Assembly (NCBI GenBank): GCA_903919315.1
Contig: CAIXHP010000051.1
Location: 1-64,000, forward strand
Direction of reading: 5' to 3'
Source of the DNA: an uncultured Pseudomonadota bacterium
GTDB lineage: Bacteria > Pseudomonadota > Alphaproteobacteria > UBA9219
DNA length: 64,000 nt
This document shows positions 47,656-56,648 of this stretch, piece after piece; the stretch's first letter is position 1; each line of letters begins with the position of its first letter. The translations under genes were made by a program, and so were the position numbers. The notes beneath the pieces were generated by a model. That model saw nothing but the letters and a program-made list of their open reading frames with translations, was not told the DNA's origin and searched no databases.

Positions 47656-50151
47656 ATGTTGCACCGTTTGCCCACCAAAGCCCCCGTCATCGCCGCCGCC
47701 ACGGCTGTCGTCGCCATCGCTTTGGTGTTCGGCGGCGTGAAGGCCGGACTCGAAGCCAGCCAATTGGCGCTGGGCGTTTTGTCCGTGCTGACGCTGGTAT
47801 TGGGTTGGCGCACATGGATGCTCAGCCGCGCCCAGCAACAGCGCGAACGCCACATGCGCCAGATGCGCTTCATCGCCGACCGTTTCTTGGGCTTGGCGCG
47901 TACGCTGCCGGGCGGTTACTGCCTGTTCACGCAGCAAGGCGTGTTGCGCGAAGAATTGGGCGTCGCCGAACGCGTAGGGCTGGAGAAAATCGGTCACTTC
48001 GACGATCTGGTCGCCGCCGTCAAGGAAGGCCCGGAACTGGTCGAAAAATTCCGCAACCTTCAACGCATCGGCGAAGCCTTCACGTTGCAGGTCAAGGCCA
48101 ACAACGATTTCGATCTGCAAGTGACGGGCCGCCGTTTCCGCATCGGGCGCGAAGGGCCGCAGGTCGACGTGTTGTGGTTCAGCGACAACCCCGCCGCCGC
48201 CCGTCAGGTCGAGCAGAAATCCGCCGCCTTGGCCGATGCCGAAGCGCGTATGCGCGCGACGCAGGCGATGCTTGACGCTCTTCCGTTCCCCATCTGGGGC
48301 CGTTCGCCCGATCTGCGTCTCGCGATGTGCAACGCGGCCTACGCCAAGGCCGTGGACGCTTCCGCAGCGGCGGTTCTGCAGGAACAACATGAACTCGTGT
48401 CGCAAACCGCGCACGGCGGCAACGGCCGAGCCTTGGCGGCCAGCGTGCTCAGCCGTGGCGAATCGCAGCGCGAGCGCCGCCACGTCATCATCAACGGCAA
48501 GCGCCGTTTGCTGGAAATCACCGAACTCCCCTTCCGCCCCGGCGTGCCGGACGGGCAGGGCAAGGACGCGCCCGTGCAAGCCTTGCTCGGCTTTGCGGTT
48601 GATGTGACCGTGGAGGAGGAAAAGGAAACCGAACTGCAGCGCCATCTGGCCGCGCATCACGAAGTGATGGAGCATCTCGGCTCCGCCATCGCGATCTACG
48701 GCCCCGGCATGCGCCTTGAATTCTACAACCGCGCCTATCAACGGCTGTGGGAAGCGGATGAAGCCTTCCTCGACAGCAAGCCGACCTTTGGCGAAGTGCT
48801 GGAAGATTTGCGCACGCGCCGCCGCGCCCCGGAACAGGCCGATTTCCAGCGTTACAAGAAAGAGCGTCTGGCGCTGTTCACCTCGCTTTTGGAGCCGCGC
48901 GAAGATCAGATGCATCTGCCGGACGGCACCTCGCTGCGCATTCTGGCGGTGCCGCATCCCTTTGGCGGCCTGATGTTCGTGCATGAGGACGTGACCGACA
49001 AGCTGGCGATGGAATCCTCCTACAACACGTTGATCGCGGTGCAACGCGAAACGCTCGACAACCTTGCCGAAGGCATCGCCGTGTTCGGACAAGACGGCAA
49101 GCTGCGTCTGTTCAACCCCGCCTTTGCGCGGATATGGAAATTGCCGCACGATTATCTGGCGGGCGAACCCCACGTCGGCGAGCTTTTGGAGCATATGAAG
49201 CCGCTGTTCGACTTCGGCGACGACTGGAACGCGTTCAAGAGCGAAATGGTCGGTTACACCCTCGACCGCCACCCGCGCACCGGGCGCATCGAACGCGCCG
49301 ATCTGGCCGTGATCGAATTCCTGACCGTGCCGCTGCCCGACGGCGCGGTGCTGAACAGCTATCTCGACGTGAGCGATTCGGTTCGGATCGAGCAAGCGCT
49401 CCGCGCCAGCAACGCCGCGCTGGCGACGGCGGATCGCTTGAAATCGGACTTTGTCGCCAACGTGTCGTACCAATTGCGCACGCCGCTCAACACCATCACC
49501 GGCTTTGCCGAAATTTTGACCGAGCAGTATTTCGGCACGCTGAACGACCGCCAGCTCGAATACACGCGCACCATCAAGGAGGCGAGCGAGAATCTGTCGC
49601 GCCTCATCAACGATGTCCTCGACCTCGCCACCATCGAAGCCGGGCGCATGTCGCTGGATCGCAAGCCCGTCGCGGTCGCCGACCTCCTCAACGCCGCCAA
49701 ACAAATGACGGCGGAATGGGCGCGGCAGCAGGCGTTGGAAATCATTATCGACTGCCCGTCCGATCTGGGCCGCTTTGACGTGGACGAACACCGCATGAAG
49801 CAGGTGTTGTTCAACCTCATCAGCAACGCCATCAAATACACGCCCGAAGGCGGCCGCATCACGCTCGGCGGACGGCGGCAGGCCGAGTGGATCGTGTTGA
49901 GCGTGGCCGACACCGGCATCGGCATTCCCGAAGCCGACCGCGAACGCGTGTTCGGCAAATTCGAACGCGCCAACCCGCAGGCGCGGCAGAGCGGCGCGGG
50001 TCTGGGCCTCAGCCTCGTGAAGAGCTTCGTCGAACTCCACGGCGGCCGCATTGAGATCACCAGCGACATCGACAAGGGCACCTGCATCAGCTGCACCATC
50101 CCCGTTCATGCGTCGGCCGGGGAAGAGCCAAAGCGCCGTGTCGCCGAATAA
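47656..50151 (+). CDS. divL: DivL-type sensor kinase with tyrosine in the H-box
   Basis: An 831-aa membrane-anchored PAS kinase. Two N-terminal hydrophobic segments (about residues 11-28 and 37-54) are followed by several PAS domains (about 215-320, 335-455, 465-580) and the DHp and HATPase domains. The H-box reads NVSYQLRTPLNTI: Tyr605 replaces the phospho-His. NLISNAIKYTPEGG, DTGIGIP and GAGLGLSL show an intact ATPase fold. Tyr in this position is the hallmark of Caulobacter DivL, which steers CckA-CtrA and the cell cycle. It is followed by tsaE with overlap. Confidence 0.9.
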   Translation: MLHRLPTKAPVIAAATAVVAIALVFGGVKAGLEASQLALGVLSVLTLVLGWRTWMLSRAQQQRERHMRQMRFIADRFLGLARTLPGGYCLFTQQGVLREELGVAERVGLEKIGHFDDLVAAVKEGPELVEKFRNLQRIGEAFTLQVKANNDFDLQVTGRRFRIGREGPQVDVLWFSDNPAAARQVEQKSAALADAEARMRATQAMLDALPFPIWGRSPDLRLAMCNAAYAKAVDASAAAVLQEQHELVSQTAHGGNGRALAASVLSRGESQRERRHVIINGKRRLLEITELPFRPGVPDGQGKDAPVQALLGFAVDVTVEEEKETELQRHLAAHHEVMEHLGSAIAIYGPGMRLEFYNRAYQRLWEADEAFLDSKPTFGEVLEDLRTRRRAPEQADFQRYKKERLALFTSLLEPREDQMHLPDGTSLRILAVPHPFGGLMFVHEDVTDKLAMESSYNTLIAVQRETLDNLAEGIAVFGQDGKLRLFNPAFARIWKLPHDYLAGEPHVGELLEHMKPLFDFGDDWNAFKSEMVGYTLDRHPRTGRIERADLAVIEFLTVPLPDGAVLNSYLDVSDSVRIEQALRASNAALATADRLKSDFVANVSYQLRTPLNTITGFAEILTEQYFGTLNDRQLEYTRTIKEASENLSRLINDVLDLATIEAGRMSLDRKPVAVADLLNAAKQMTAEWARQQALEIIIDCPSDLGRFDVDEHRMKQVLFNLISNAIKYTPEGGRITLGGRRQAEWIVLSVADTGIGIPEADRERVFGKFERANPQARQSGAGLGLSLVKSFVELHGGRIEITSDIDKGTCISCTIPVHASAGEEPKRRVAE

Positions 50152-50599
50152 AATCGTCCCTCTGCCCGACCTCGCCGCGACCGAGGCGCTGGCGGCGCGA
50201 CTCGCGCCGTTGCTGCGCGCGGGCGATGCCGTGACGTTGCAAGGCGATCTGGGCGCGGGTAAAACGGCTTTGGCGCGGGCCTTGCTGCGTTCCTTGGGCG
50301 TGACCGGCGATGTTCCGAGTCCGACCTTTACCTTGGTGCAAAGCTACGACACGGCGCGGTTTCCGGTTTATCATTTCGACCTCTACCGCCTGAAACGCGG
50401 CGACGAGGTGGAGGAACTGGGCTGGGACGATGCCTTGGCCGAAGGTGTGGTGCTTGTCGAGTGGCCGGAACGCGCCGCCGCCTTTATGCCGCGTGACCGT
50501 CTGGCGCTGACACTGGACATGGACGCAAACGGCCAGCGCCGCGCGACGCTGGAGACGCATGGCGCATGGATAGCGCGGGCAGGGGACGTGTGGCCATGA
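50138..50599 (+). CDS. tsaE: tRNA threonylcarbamoyladenosine biosynthesis ATPase TsaE
   Basis: A 153-aa P-loop ATPase needed for t6A37 modification of tRNA. Walker A is LQGDLGAGKTALARALL; SPTFTLVQSY, HFDLYRL and LVEWPERA are conserved. I prefer the GTG at 50138 (normal family length, GGGAAGAG upstream, 14-nt overlap with divL). An ATG at 50108 gives a 10-residue longer form. Confidence 0.94.
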   Translation: MSPNKIVPLPDLAATEALAARLAPLLRAGDAVTLQGDLGAGKTALARALLRSLGVTGDVPSPTFTLVQSYDTARFPVYHFDLYRLKRGDEVEELGWDDALAEGVVLVEWPERAAAFMPRDRLALTLDMDANGQRRATLETHGAWIARAGDVWP

Positions 50600-51573
50600 C
50601 CCCGTCCGTCGCCGCGTTTCTGGAACAGGCCGGATGGGCGCAGGCGCGGATAACGCCGATGCAAGCCGACTTCTCGCCGCGCCGTTACGCGCGGCTGGAA
50701 CGCGCTGATGGCCGCCGCGCTATCCTGATGCAGGCCGCCGCCGACCAGAAAACGCCCGCCTTCGTCGCCATCGCCTGCCTGTTGCGCGATCTGGAACTTT
50801 CCGCCCCCGTCCTGTACGCGGCCGAGCCGGACAACGGCCTCGTTCTGATGGAGGATTTCGGCGACCGCAACTTCGGCGCTTTGCTGGACGCGGGCGAAGA
50901 CGCGTGGCCGCTTTACCGCCGCGCCACGGATGTGCTGGCGCATTTGCATCAAGCGTTTGACGCGGCGAACGCCATGCCTCTCCCGCTTTTCGACGCCGCG
51001 CTGTTCACGGCGCAGGCGGAATTGTTCCTTGATGCCTACATCCCTTTCGCCCAAAGCCGCGAAGCCACGCCGGGCGAGCGCGAAGGATTCCGCGCAGCAT
51101 GGCTTGAGGCATTAAAGCCTTTGGACTCCCTGCCGCAAACGCTGCTGCTGCGCGATTATATGCCCGACAATCTGATGGACTTGCCGGAGCGTGAGGCTTG
51201 GCGCGGCGTCGGCGTGCTGGATTTTCAGGACGCGGGACGCGGCCCCATCGCCTATGACCTCGCCTCGCTGTGCGAGGCCGTGCGCCGCGACGGCGGCCCC
51301 GCGCTGCAGGAGGATGTCTTGGCGCAATATCACCGCCAAAATCCCGCCGTGGCTTTGCCGGACCTCCGCCGCGCCTGCCGCGTGCTGGCCGCGCAAAGAC
51401 ACACCCGCATCCTCGGCATCATCGCGCGTCTGGCGCAACAGGGACGGCGCGAAAAGCTGGCCCTCTTGCCCCGCGTCGGCGGTTATCTGGCGACGTTGTT
51501 GAAGGACGACGCGCTGCGCGATGTCGCAAAGATCATCGGAACGACAGAGTCGGCGTTTGCGACGCGACCTTGA
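50596..51573 (+). CDS. amgK: Aminoglycoside-phosphotransferase-like sugar kinase (AmgK-like)
   Basis: A 325-aa kinase of the APH/choline-kinase fold. The catalytic region is LLLRDYMPDNLMDL (with Asp in place of the usual His of HxDxxxxN) and VGVLDFQDAGRGPIAYDLAS (the DxD metal site), with LVLMEDFGDRNF in the N-lobe. In many bacteria AmgK phosphorylates MurNAc at C1 and works with MurU, whose homologue lies 1.4 kb downstream, so peptidoglycan recycling is likely. It overlaps tsaE by 4 nt. Its 3' end overlaps a minus-strand orphan gene by 41 bp. Confidence 0.87.
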   Translation: MTPSVAAFLEQAGWAQARITPMQADFSPRRYARLERADGRRAILMQAAADQKTPAFVAIACLLRDLELSAPVLYAAEPDNGLVLMEDFGDRNFGALLDAGEDAWPLYRRATDVLAHLHQAFDAANAMPLPLFDAALFTAQAELFLDAYIPFAQSREATPGEREGFRAAWLEALKPLDSLPQTLLLRDYMPDNLMDLPEREAWRGVGVLDFQDAGRGPIAYDLASLCEAVRRDGGPALQEDVLAQYHRQNPAVALPDLRRACRVLAAQRHTRILGIIARLAQQGRREKLALLPRVGGYLATLLKDDALRDVAKIIGTTESAFATRP

Positions 51574-52183
51574 GCGGTTGACGAATAAGCGCATCGCAAC
51601 CATAGCCCTGAAGCGACCCCTCGACCGCGAATTCCGGAGCGCCAACCACGGATGTTCCGACGTAAGCATAGCCTTTCGGGCGCTTAAAACTCCGGCAGCT
51701 TATCTCCATCTCATCGTAAGGTGGAAGGCCGGAAAAAGCGACGACGGCGTGGGGGTTCAATCGCTGTACGGTTTCTTGCCACGCGGTCGGCGTGCTGCGG
51801 GGACTTGTGAGAAAATTGGGATCGTCCTCGAATAGCTTTGCCAACGCATAGGCTTCTTTGGTCGGGTCAAGGATGAACCCAACCACCATAAGATCCGTGC
51901 GGGGCAGCGACAGATCGGGGTTAAGGATGTCGTGTCCGTTGCGACAATCCACCGGCGTATACCGGAAATCCGGATCGACGTTGATGCCTCCGCTGGCGCA
52001 AAAGATCATGGCATGGGCGAGCCAGTATTGATCCCTCAAACTCAGCTCGCCGCCCTCAACCACCGCCCCGACGGCGGTTATGTTCCTGACAACTGGCGCG
52101 CTGCGGTCTGTTATCTGCCCGCAGTACTGCCGGAAAGTTTGCAGAGAGGGGGAGCTGGAAGAAATGGTAATGATTTTGCTCAT
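51533..52183 (-). CDS. Orphan protein, first of a tandem paralogue pair
   Basis: A 216-aa protein of unknown family. It aligns along most of its length with the next gene: VVRNITAVGAVVEGGELSLR versus VVRNITAAGAMLENNGLSFR, then VDPDFRYTPVDCRNGHDIL versus VDPDFRVTPVNYNNGHDIL, and TAWQETVQRLNP in both. No signal peptide or membrane segment is visible. An AGGA Shine-Dalgarno precedes MSKIITISSSS. It sits between amgK and murU on the opposite strand, and its last 13 codons overlap the amgK end. Base composition is more AT-rich than its neighbours. Function unknown. Confidence 0.75.
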   Translation of the reverse strand: MSKIITISSSSPSLQTFRQYCGQITDRSAPVVRNITAVGAVVEGGELSLRDQYWLAHAMIFCASGGINVDPDFRYTPVDCRNGHDILNPDLSLPRTDLMVVGFILDPTKEAYALAKLFEDDPNFLTSPRSTPTAWQETVQRLNPHAVVAFSGLPPYDEMEISCRSFKRPKGYAYVGTSVVGAPEFAVEGSLQGYGCDALIRQPLKVASQTPTLSFR

Positions 52184-52247
52184 GAAAATTTTCCTGTTAG
52201 GCGTGCTTCAATCGCCATGATTCGCGTCGTGAGACTGGCTTGCGCAA

Positions 52248-52886
52248 TTAGGGGGCCGGCTTTTGCCCCGTGACTTTGACGGCTTGGCGGATCAGCGCAT
52301 CACGGCCAAAGGGCTTCAAGGGGCCAGAGGTCGTCGCCGTGGGGGCCATAACTGGCTGTGGCCCCACGGTGGTATAGCCGTCAGGTCGTGGAAAGCTTCG
52401 GGAACAGACTTCTATCTGCCTAAAAGGCAGAGCAAAAAAAGTAACGACAACGAGCGGATTGAGCCGCTGCACCGTCTCCGTCCACGCGGTTGGCTGGCAG
52501 CGAGGGCTTACGCTATAGCCTGCCTGATGACCTCGCCTATGTTCCTTGTTACCTGCGACGGTGCTGCGGTTGATGATGAAACAGACCACGAGAAGATCGG
52601 TGGGAGGCAGCGCGAGTTTGGGATCCAGAATGTCGTGCCCATTGTTGTAATTCACGGGCGTTACACGGAAGTCGGGATCGACGGCGATATTTTGGTCGTT
52701 ACATAGAGCCAGCGTATGGTGCAGCCAGTGGCGATCCCTAAAACTCAGTCCGTTGTTTTCAAGCATGGCCCCGGCGGCGGTTATGTTCCTGACAACCGGC
52801 TGGTCTCGTTCTGTCGCCGTGCGGCAAAGAGAGCGGAATTCGCTCAGGCTTTGGTTCGAGGAGGGCAGGGTAATAAATCTGCTCAT
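52248..52886 (-). CDS. Orphan protein, second of a tandem paralogue pair
   Basis: A 212-aa paralogue of the preceding gene, roughly half identical by eye. Shared blocks are RNITAAGAMLE, VDPDFRVTPV, NNGHDILDPKLALPPTDLLV, TAWTETVQRLNPLVVV and SFPRPDGY. The start at 52886 (MSRFITLPSS) follows AGGAACC; the frame is open 18 codons further. Conserved polar residues (Arg in VVRNIT, Asp-Pro-Asp, Asn-Gly-His-Asp) suggest a functional site, but I recognise no known enzyme. The pair probably arose by duplication after insertion. Confidence 0.75.
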   Translation of the reverse strand: MSRFITLPSSNQSLSEFRSLCRTATERDQPVVRNITAAGAMLENNGLSFRDRHWLHHTLALCNDQNIAVDPDFRVTPVNYNNGHDILDPKLALPPTDLLVVCFIINRSTVAGNKEHRRGHQAGYSVSPRCQPTAWTETVQRLNPLVVVTFFALPFRQIEVCSRSFPRPDGYTTVGPQPVMAPTATTSGPLKPFGRDALIRQAVKVTGQKPAP

Positions 52887-52962: not shown

Positions 52963-53697
52963 ATGATGGATTCGCTCTCTTCAACCGCCATGATTCTCGC
53001 TGCCGGTCTCGGTGCGCGGATGCGGCCCTTGACGTTAACCAAGCCCAAGCCGTTGCAGGAGGTGGGCGGGCGGACGATGCTTGATCATGCGCTGGATCGG
53101 CTGGTGGGTATCGGCATCCGGCGCGTCGTCGTCAACGCCTTTCATCTGGCCGAGCAGATCGCGGCCCATGCCTCGCGGCGGTCGGATGTGGAGATCGTCG
53201 TCATCCGCGAAACGGAATTGCTCGACACCGGCGGCGGCATTAAAAACGCGTTGCCGTGGTTCGGCGGCAAGCCCTTCTTTGCGCTCAACGCCGACCTGCC
53301 GTGGGTGGACGGGGCCATGCCGTCGCTGCAGCGCCTCGCCGCCTTTTGGGAGCCGTCGCGCATGGACGCCGCCCTCCTGCTCATGCCGACCGCCAAGGCG
53401 CGGGGGTTCGGGGCGGAGGGCGACTTTATGCTGGAGCCGGATGGCCGCGTGTGGCGGCAAAACGCCCCCGTGCCGCGCTCCCACGTCTGGATCGCCGCCC
53501 AAATTTTGAAACCTCACTTGTTCGATGAAGTTCAGGAAAAAGCTTTTTCCAACAATGTGATATGGAATGCTGTTGAAGCGCGGTCTGCGCTGTTTGGGCT
53601 GGAGCATGACGGCGCTTGCTACCACGTCGGCACCCCGGAAGACTTGGTCGAAGCCAACCGCCTGTTGGCCAGCGGCGCGGGGTGGGGCGTGGCATGA
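52963..53697 (+). CDS. murU: Nucleotidyltransferase, MurU-like
   Basis: A 244-aa NTP-transferase: the loop MILAAGLGARMRPLT and TKPKPLQEVGGRTMLDHAL give the nucleotide-binding site, with TGGGIKNAL and NADLPW (metal Asp) following. It should make UDP-MurNAc from MurNAc-1-P in the AmgK/MurU recycling route; mannose-1-P guanylyltransferase-like activity is the alternative. The start at 52963 lacks a strong Shine-Dalgarno. It overlaps addB by ATGA. Confidence 0.88.
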   Translation: MMDSLSSTAMILAAGLGARMRPLTLTKPKPLQEVGGRTMLDHALDRLVGIGIRRVVVNAFHLAEQIAAHASRRSDVEIVVIRETELLDTGGGIKNALPWFGGKPFFALNADLPWVDGAMPSLQRLAAFWEPSRMDAALLLMPTAKARGFGAEGDFMLEPDGRVWRQNAPVPRSHVWIAAQILKPHLFDEVQEKAFSNNVIWNAVEARSALFGLEHDGACYHVGTPEDLVEANRLLASGAGWGVA

Positions 53698-56648
53698 CGC
53701 AGGCTTTGGCGGTCTTCACCATCCCCCCCCACGTCGCCTTCGTCGAGGCGCTGGCCGGAGACTTGTGGCGGCAGGCCGAGGCGGATCCCCTGCGGCTGGC
53801 CTCGATGCTGGTGCTGCTGCCGACGCGGCGCAGTTGTCGCCTTTTGCGCGAAGCCTTTCTGCGTGTGACGGGCGGCAAGGCGGCGCTGCTGCCCCGCATG
53901 CAACCTTTGGGCGACGTGGACGAGGTCGAGCTTTATTTCGCCGCCGGAGCGTCCAGCCTCGCGATCCCTCCCGCCATCCCGCCGTTGCGGCGGCAGATGT
54001 TGTTGACTCGCTTGATCCTAAAAAAGGACTCCGGCCTGCCGGTGGACCAGGCGGCGCAATTGGCGGCGGCCTTGGGCGATTTGCTGGATCAGGTGCAAAC
54101 CGAACGCCGCGACTTCGCCGATTTGGAAAAACTGGTGCCGGAGAATCTCGCCGCGCATTGGCAACAGACGTTGGATTTCCTCAAGATCGTCACGGCGGCA
54201 TGGCCGTTGGTGCTGGCGGAGGAGGGGTGTCTCGACTCCGCCGCGCGGCGCAACCGCATTCTGGAAACGCAGGCGGAAACATGGCGCGCCGCGCCGCCGC
54301 CGCTTCCGGTGATCGCGGCGGGTTCAACCGGATCGGTGCCCGCCGTGGCCGACTTGCTCACCGTCATCGCCGGATTGCCGCAGGGCCGCGTGGTGCTGCC
54401 GGGCCTCGATCAGGCGCTTGACGAAGCCGCATGGCAAGCCTTGGACGAAAGCCACCCGCAATTCGGCATGAAGCAATGGCTGGAACAGGCAGGCGTACGG
54501 CGCGAGGACGTGGCGGCGTTCGGTTCCGGCGGCGCGAGCGTCCACCGCGTGCGCTTGCTGCAAGAAGCGATGCGTCCCGCCGAAGAGACGCAGGCTTGGC
54601 GCGATTTAACGCCGGAAGTGATTACGCGCGACGCGCTGACAGGCTTGTCGCGTCTGGAGCTCGACCACCAGCAGGAGGAAGCCGAAGTCATCGCGCTGCG
54701 CCTCCGCGCCGCGTTGGAGGAACCGGGAAAAACCGCTTCGTTGGTCACGCCGGATCGAGCGTTGGCCGAGCGCGTTGCGGCGGCGTTGCGGCGCTGGGGT
54801 ATTGAGGCCAACGATTCGGCGGGCGCGTCGCTGGCGGCGTTGCCGACCGGAAGTTTTCTCTTGGAAGCGCTGCGCGCCGCCGCGCCGCAGGCCTCGCCCG
54901 TGGATGATCTCGCGCTGTTGAAACACCCGCTGGCCGCGTGCGGACTCGACGCCGCCGAATGCCGTCGTCGCGCGCGGCAGATCGAAGTGAAAGTCTGGCG
55001 CGGCGTGCGTCGCGCCGACGGCTGGCGCGGCGTGGCGACGGCGCAGGACGACAATGGCGCGGCGCTCATCGCCTCGACCCAGCTGGCCGACTGGATCAAC
55101 GCCCTCGCCGATTTGTTTGAGCCCGTGACGGCGACATGGAATGAAAAACGGCCCCTCACCGAACGCCTGAGCCAGCATATCGCCTTGGCGGAAGGATTGG
55201 CCGCGAAGGACGAAGTCCCCGGCGCGGCGCGTCTGTGGCGCGGCGAAGCGGGCGAGGCCGCCGCGCTGTGGCTGGACGACTGGCGGCAAGCGGCGCAGGA
55301 TTTTCCGCCCATCACCGGCAATGATTATACGCAGTTGTTCGCCAGCCTGTTGCGTCAAGTCATGGTGCGCCCCGCCTATGGCCAGCACCCGCGTCTTAGC
55401 ATTCTGGGGCCGTTGGAAGCGCGGCTGCATCACGCCGATCTGGTGATCCTCGGCGGCCTGAACGAAGGCACTTGGCCGCCCGAAGCGACGATCGACCCGT
55501 GGTTGTCGCGGCCCATGAAGAAAGAATTCGGCTTGCCGTTGCCGGAACGGCGCTTGGGGCTGGCAGCGCATGACTTTGTGCAGTTGGCGAGCGCCCCCGA
55601 AGTCCTCCTCACCCGCGCGCGCCGCGTCGGCACAGCGCCCACGGTGCCATCGCGCTATGTGCTGCAGATCGAAGCGGTGCTGCAAGCGCTGGGCTATCAC
55701 GGGCCGGAGCAAGACGCGTTGGCCCCCGCCGAACCGTGGCAATACTGGGCGCGGCAGCTCGACAAGCCGGAGGTGATCGCGCCGTGTCGCCGCCCCGAAC
55801 CTTGTCCTCCTGTGGCGGTGCGGCCCCGTCGTTTGTCGGTGACGGAAATCGGCACATGGCTACGCAACCCTTATGCCATTTACGCAAAGCATGTTTTGAA
55901 GCTGAAGAAACTCGACGACATCGACGCCGACGTGACGGCATCGGAACGCGGCACGATGATTCACGCGGCGCTGGAGCGACTCGTCGTCCGGCACAAAGAC
56001 GCGTGGCCGTCGGAGCCGGAAGCGCTGCGCGACCTGCTGGCCATTGGGCGCGAGCTGTTCGCGCCGTTCGCGGACAGGCCGCAGGTGGCCGCGTTCTGGT
56101 GGCCGCGCTTTGAGCGCATCGCCGCGTGGTTCGTTGAAAACGAAGCCAAGCGGCGGAAAACGGGAATCCGCATTCTGGCGGCGGAGCGCGACGGCGCGAT
56201 GAGCTTGGCGGGCGGCGCGTTCACCTTGCGGGGCCGCGTGGATCGCATCGACCTGCTGCCGGATGGCCGCGCCGCGATCCTCGATTACAAAACCGGCGGC
56301 GTGCCGTCGCAGAAAGACGTCGCCTCCGGTATCGAACCGCAACTGCCGCTGTTGGCGCTGATGCTGGAAGCGGGCGGCTTTGCCGAACTGGGACGCTTTG
56401 AGGCGGGCGAATTGGAATACTGGCATTTGCAGGGCGCGACCAGTGGCGAGAAACTCACGACGATCAAAGGCGACATCGCCGCCCTGATGGCGGAGGCGCA
56501 AGATGGGCTTGAGGCGTTGCTGGCGGCATTCGCCAAGCCTTCCACCGCCTACGAAGCCGTGCCCAGGCCGCGTTTTGCGCTGCGCTACGACGATTACGCG
56601 CATCTGGCGCGGTTGGAAGAATGGGGAAGATTCGAGGGCGAAGCATGA
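53694..56648 (+). CDS. addB: Double-strand break repair protein AddB
   Basis: A 984-aa subunit of the AddAB helicase-nuclease, alphaproteobacterial type. A helicase-like but degenerate N-terminal part (VLLPTRRSCRLLREAFL, no clear Walker A) and VILGGLNEGTWPPEATIDPW followed by LSRPMKKEFGL are typical. The C-terminal PD-(D/E)XK nuclease has GTMIHAALERL, LRGRVDRIDLLPDG and AAILDYKTG. AddAB resects breaks for RecA loading. It overlaps murU and addA by 4 nt each. Confidence 0.95.
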   Translation: MTQALAVFTIPPHVAFVEALAGDLWRQAEADPLRLASMLVLLPTRRSCRLLREAFLRVTGGKAALLPRMQPLGDVDEVELYFAAGASSLAIPPAIPPLRRQMLLTRLILKKDSGLPVDQAAQLAAALGDLLDQVQTERRDFADLEKLVPENLAAHWQQTLDFLKIVTAAWPLVLAEEGCLDSAARRNRILETQAETWRAAPPPLPVIAAGSTGSVPAVADLLTVIAGLPQGRVVLPGLDQALDEAAWQALDESHPQFGMKQWLEQAGVRREDVAAFGSGGASVHRVRLLQEAMRPAEETQAWRDLTPEVITRDALTGLSRLELDHQQEEAEVIALRLRAALEEPGKTASLVTPDRALAERVAAALRRWGIEANDSAGASLAALPTGSFLLEALRAAAPQASPVDDLALLKHPLAACGLDAAECRRRARQIEVKVWRGVRRADGWRGVATAQDDNGAALIASTQLADWINALADLFEPVTATWNEKRPLTERLSQHIALAEGLAAKDEVPGAARLWRGEAGEAAALWLDDWRQAAQDFPPITGNDYTQLFASLLRQVMVRPAYGQHPRLSILGPLEARLHHADLVILGGLNEGTWPPEATIDPWLSRPMKKEFGLPLPERRLGLAAHDFVQLASAPEVLLTRARRVGTAPTVPSRYVLQIEAVLQALGYHGPEQDALAPAEPWQYWARQLDKPEVIAPCRRPEPCPPVAVRPRRLSVTEIGTWLRNPYAIYAKHVLKLKKLDDIDADVTASERGTMIHAALERLVVRHKDAWPSEPEALRDLLAIGRELFAPFADRPQVAAFWWPRFERIAAWFVENEAKRRKTGIRILAAERDGAMSLAGGAFTLRGRVDRIDLLPDGRAAILDYKTGGVPSQKDVASGIEPQLPLLALMLEAGGFAELGRFEAGELEYWHLQGATSGEKLTTIKGDIAALMAEAQDGLEALLAAFAKPSTAYEAVPRPRFALRYDDYAHLARLEEWGRFEGEA

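Follow-up and report, generated by a model that had tools for sequence, protein, structure and literature searches.

Tandem genes of an undescribed alphaproteobacterial family of proposed single-gene units between amgK and murU

In an uncultured alphaproteobacterium, two adjacent genes that separate amgK from murU, the muramate-recycling pair, represent a family that has not been described before; it consists of single-gene units and is restricted, as far as sampled, to a few alphaproteobacterial orders. We analyzed these genes within a window of 64,000 nucleotides, the whole stretch of DNA under study, together with their homologues and the corresponding loci of related genomes. The reading that we favor, with a probability of roughly 0.55, is that a unit of this family inserted at the amgK/murU junction, was copied there later, and encodes a Rossmann-like ligand-binding protein or enzyme. 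The evidence comprises the family and its distribution, the insertion site, an altered AmgK tail, a copy of the murU start lying between the two genes, and purifying selection in a relative.

Both paralogues are intact open reading frames on the minus strand between amgK and murU; the first (51533..52183, encoding P0001, 216 aa) is convergent with amgK and overlaps it, and the second (52248..52886, encoding P0002, 212 aa) is divergent from murU. An earlier note on this DNA had described two proteins of about 215 aa, about half identical to each other and sharing four conserved blocks, and this description holds, as P0001 and P0002 are 50% identical over their full length and the blocks VVRNIT, VDPDF, NGHDIL and TAWxETVQRLNP are all present in both. 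The genes had also been called AT-richer and strand-reversed; the GC content of the pair is indeed 57% versus 64-66% in tsaE, amgK and murU, with a GC content at third codon positions of 0.64-0.66 versus 0.72-0.79 in the same three genes. On sequence grounds, the pair can be regarded as real genes and not chance open reading frames, since 39 homologues were detected by profile and a close orthologue pair displays a dN/dS of ~0.05.

According to NCBIfam profiles, the order of the host operon is tsaE-amgK-murU-addB, all on the plus strand: the upstream gene tsaE (50051..50599; TIGR00150); amgK (50596..51573; NF045698, 173.5 bits), encoding an N-acetylmuramate/N-acetylglucosamine kinase with an altered C-terminus; murU (52963..53697; NF045697, 198.5 bits), encoding a MurNAc-1-P uridylyltransferase; and addB, the next gene (53616..56648; TIGR02786). 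For tsaE and addB these are the limits of the open reading frames, the true starts possibly lying further in; AmgK and MurU are recognized clearly, though with scores under the curated cut-offs (500 and 370, respectively), as expected for a divergent lineage. The amgK/murU pair is thus split and the end of amgK overlapped, as had been noticed before: 41 bp (51533..51573) are shared with the P0001 gene, in which the last 13 sense codons of amgK and its stop are read from the complement of the family gene. The C-terminus of AmgK in relatives reads ...PV(R)xW plus 6-9 aa; in the window it reads ...DVAKIIGTTESAFATRP, the conserved tail being replaced by IIGTTESAFATRP from position 51532. Given that the P0001 open reading frame ends at 51533, one breakpoint falls within the terminal part of amgK. 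The split pair and the replaced AmgK tail raise the question of how peptidoglycan recycling copes.

Relatives keep amgK and murU close, which bears out the proposed insertion into this pair: in 19 of the sampled relatives with both genes at the locus, the two are within ~125 bp and no family gene lies between them, the gap being 33 bp in G011, which belongs to the same family as the window's organism. A reciprocal arrangement was found in G013, where a family copy lies between dnaX and ybaB and amgK/murU are kept contiguous; in G000 the situation is the opposite, dnaX and ybaB being contiguous and constituting the reciprocal empty site. The family is therefore not a standard member of the amgK/murU operon, and its members sit at other junctions instead of always at this locus.

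The recycling operon displays further variation among relatives. In G004 (L065, 2456-2980) an antisense orphan of 169 aa, unique to this genome among those sampled from the order, occupies the amgK/murU junction; it was considered as a family homologue and rejected as unrelated, and it makes it possible that the junction is an insertion hot spot. AmgK and MurU constitute one continuous open reading frame, a gene fusion, in G029 (L083), and TsaE and AmgK apparently lie in one open frame in G025 (L081), again a gene fusion. The murU gene of G009 (L077, ~2744-2940) carries an in-frame insert of ~65 residues, SLRAQRSNP...WIATLRFASLAMT, resembling a palindromic repeat element that has settled within coding sequence.

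Profile searches, with a profile built stepwise, recovered 39 family members, distributed in 8/33 genomes of the window's order, 25/142 genomes of a second alphaproteobacterial order and 2/2 genomes of a third, several of the member genomes being incomplete drafts. In a class-wide sample 5 of 385 genomes carried members, and in a phylum-wide sample of 398 genomes the only match was in the window's own genome. P0001 and P0002 had no family match in Pfam, NCBIfam or PHROGs; no credible match was obtained for any of the 39 members in Pfam, PADLOC, PHROGs and NCBIfam; and the family profiles yielded chance-level matches only, nothing credible, against PDB sequences. The assertion that the proteins match no known family is thus upheld, and a literature search returned nothing on the family. 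Although none of the five libraries of families and structures that were searched contains it, it is widespread enough for study. All members share a core, xxIxxVGA - D - helix - P-F - VNLxxGxDFLxxxxxaDLVxxxxI - S - W - GAKxVxxxGxxxE, in which G42, D54, D97 and W147 (numbering of the L100 member) are invariant or near-invariant in the family alignment. For the closest orthologue pair, L094/L095, dN is 0.027, dS is 0.50 and dN/dS is ~0.05. Members of the family can accordingly be described, from this relative pair, as functional proteins under purifying selection, and together with the conserved core this agrees with the retained function suggested earlier.

Members are mostly single and located at unrelated housekeeping junctions, including fba/gap (L101), hisA/hisF (L110), SpoU methylase/polA (L098) and uvrB/endonuclease V (L107); another lies at glmM (L010), and others adjoin lpd, acnA, guaA and thymidylate synthase. 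Members form one more tandem pair, of independent origin, which lies antisense between DUF983 and SURF1 (L093, 6094-7796). A common partner gene was rejected, as neighbors vary except within subclades. Phage, effector or immunity neighbors, which the earlier note had suggested looking for around homologues, were not found in the context survey. It is rather unlikely that the family represents a single-gene accessory function in phage defense, immunity or of the antitoxin type that selection has spread. The patchy, divergent and self-contained nature of the family, usually with one copy per genome, would suit such a gene, as would the L009 member near a type I restriction-modification locus; but that locus is the one exception among housekeeping neighbors, which are not defense islands, there is no credible PADLOC or PHROG match (best PADLOC E 0.01, for one member only), and no relative of the family was detected in the viral, phage and plasmid collections searched. 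A defense, phage or plasmid origin was rejected on the lack of matches in PADLOC, PHROGs and the phage and plasmid collections.

Vertical inheritance has a place in the history of the family: in some subclades the gene stays by the same neighbor (acnA, lpd or guaA), and there its constancy reflects vertical descent. That the whole family is an ancient, vertically inherited set of paralogues with much loss and rapid divergence, and with no movement of single genes, is nonetheless improbable. Stable synteny in these subclades and the high divergence of members, which would hide orthology, speak for it; against it stand the empty contiguous sites in most relatives, the replaced AmgK tail, the flanking duplications described below, and congeners carrying the family gene at different sites. 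In the congeners G013/G018, AmgK is 65% identical versus 19% for the family protein, and in G012/G015 the values are 64% versus 29%; copies in congeners thus diverge far more than AmgK, which argues against simple orthology. Fast divergence and differential loss of ancient paralogues could still mimic transfer.

Insertion and copying at the amgK/murU junction, the reading we prefer, also find support in short flanking copies. Between the two family genes, at 52206..52226 (plus strand), lies a copy of the murU start matching at 19/21 nt its intact source inside murU (52979..52999, plus strand), with a score that only 1 of 5000 shuffles, and 0 of 3386 real same-length stretches of the window, attained. 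The most plausible reading of this copy is a trace left when the second gene copy arose beside murU, and it supports a copying event in situ. A single member, L011, has a 36/38-nt flanking copy of the next gene's leader and start codon, the 38-nt sequence occurring exactly twice in that genome, and another, L113, is flanked by a 32/38-nt copy of the lpd C-terminus, HPTLTEVTKEAALA. Duplication of the neighbor's terminal 21-38 nt across the unit, seen in 3 of ~37 loci, suggests insertion with target duplication; since L011 and L113 are single members, insertion may duplicate its target, in which case the window may contain a second insertion. The second copy in the window may accordingly represent either a tandem duplication or a second insertion. 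The mode of movement is weakly supported, because in 34 of ~37 loci flanking duplication does not rise above background, and a search for terminal inverted repeats in member loci found none, own-pair scores equaling cross-pair scores. Searches of Pfam, NCBIfam and PHROGs revealed no transposase or recombinase encoded by the family, nor was a recombinase linked to it.

We propose that a unit of the family would have inserted between amgK and murU in the reverse orientation, cutting off the native tail of amgK, so that AmgK would now end in a dozen residues from the inserted DNA, and giving murU a divergent neighbor. Later, another copy would have arisen beside murU, with part of the murU start left behind between the two. 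Of the transfer followed by duplication that had been put forward for these genes, insertion and copying are retained, and an origin in another species is one possible source: given that members were detected in these alphaproteobacterial orders only, the data fit relocation or exchange among them equally well as distant transfer. We infer movement as single units; such movement into core operons is made testable by the reciprocal empty sites and by the leftover pieces of host-gene ends. A bolder proposal, which we regard as speculative and rather improbable, is that of a new minimal mobile unit, in which one recombinase-less gene inserts at housekeeping junctions or gene ends with a 20-40-nt target duplication, its product being a new enzyme or sensor of Rossmann-like fold from which these bacteria benefit.

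Profiles lead to no known family, and among folds Foldseek places methyltransferases nearest, with poor overlap. Two confident AlphaFold2 models predict an alpha/beta domain: that of P0001 has a pLDDT of 82 and a pTM of 0.84, and that of a member from the second order a pLDDT of 86 and a pTM of 0.87. Among the PDB matches listed for P0001, most were NNMT/INMT-type methyltransferases (E 6e-5 to 8e-4, probability 0.92-1.00), with TM-scores of 0.27-0.38 and an rmsd of ~10 Å, and methyltransferases also lead the list against viral structures; for the second model they come first, but every E-value is at least 0.013, and anamorsin is among the weak matches. For the seven-stranded 3-2-1-4-5-7-6 sheet that characterizes class I enzymes, the Foldseek probability reaches 1.00 at a TM-score of about 0.35. 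With TM-scores of 0.32-0.42 for the best fold matches, the predicted fold class is tentative. A true class I SAM-dependent methyltransferase, NNMT-like and acting on a small metabolite or signal, would account for these matches, for the beta-alpha-beta ... beta-alpha-beta-beta-beta order and for D[FI]L...aDLV where motifs III-IV belong. Such an enzyme is unlikely, however, given the low TM-scores and high rmsd of the P0001 matches and the weak ones of the better second model, the absence of the SAM glycine motif (E/DxGxG motif I, expected after strand 1), which is present in 0/39 members, a probability of 1% in profile-profile comparison (hhalign) with the relatives' methyltransferases, whose profile consisted of two sequences only, and the lack of any methyltransferase match in Pfam or NCBIfam. 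Membership among SAM methyltransferases was rejected on the missing motif I and the failed profile-profile comparison. The family protein is instead predicted to be a Rossmann-like ligand-binding protein, either enzyme or sensor, and is unlikely to transfer methyl groups from SAM. To judge by conservation, a putative ligand pocket is probably lined by G, D, D, D and W residues that vary little or not at all and by an E that most members keep; the ligand would most likely be small and nucleotide-like, bound by an enzyme or sensor that is not an ordinary SAM methyltransferase and that presumably acts in the cytosol.

The downstream neighbor lies on the opposite strand in 26/34 member loci versus 145/345 (42%) of background genes (Fisher p 2e-4), a tendency only, because related loci are non-independent and gene calling followed a simple rule. 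A regulatory insert, in which the antisense pair acts on peptidoglycan recycling through antisense transcription over amgK or by providing murU with its own promoter, is very unlikely: the 41-bp convergent overlap, the divergent start beside murU and the strand tendency are compatible with it, but host genes vary by lineage (dnaX, gap, hisF, lpd, acnA) with no common target, and the protein core is conserved under purifying selection. A promoter-like element, TTGACATAAT, was observed near the start codon of family genes in L034, L096, L101, L106, L113, L115 and others; it is enriched near family gene starts (14/37 within one mismatch) and also occurs at the starts of other genes, for which reason it was rejected as a family-specific operator and looks like the ordinary strong promoter of those bacteria. 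No promoter consensus turned up in the window.

Several known systems offer partial parallels. Genomic islands integrate at gene ends with att duplication, for example at guaA or tRNA genes. The family resembles them in the copy of a host gene's end beyond the insert (lpd in L113; the next gene's leader in L011), but its insert is a single gene of ~0.7 kb with no integrase and a new target each time. Like orphan, or taxonomically restricted, bacterial gene families, it occurs in a narrow lineage only, is AT-richer and is usually monocistronic; it differs in its 39 traceable members, in purifying selection and in being bounded, in some cases, by duplicated host sequence. With the class I SAM methyltransferase fold (NNMT_PNMT_TEMT) it shares the alternating alpha/beta order, three late strands and a conserved Asp before the equivalent of the fourth strand, whereas glycine motif I is lacking, there is no room for strand 3 and its helices, TM-scores are below 0.4 and sequence profiles give no support. 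Dre2/anamorsin contains a degenerate methyltransferase-like domain, from which the glycine loop, one strand and two helices have disappeared (PMC3440578). As a weak match of the second model, it provides a precedent for a methyltransferase fold with no glycine loop; the family, from a different lineage, has no Fe-S cluster domain and is likened to it by fold match, not by sequence.
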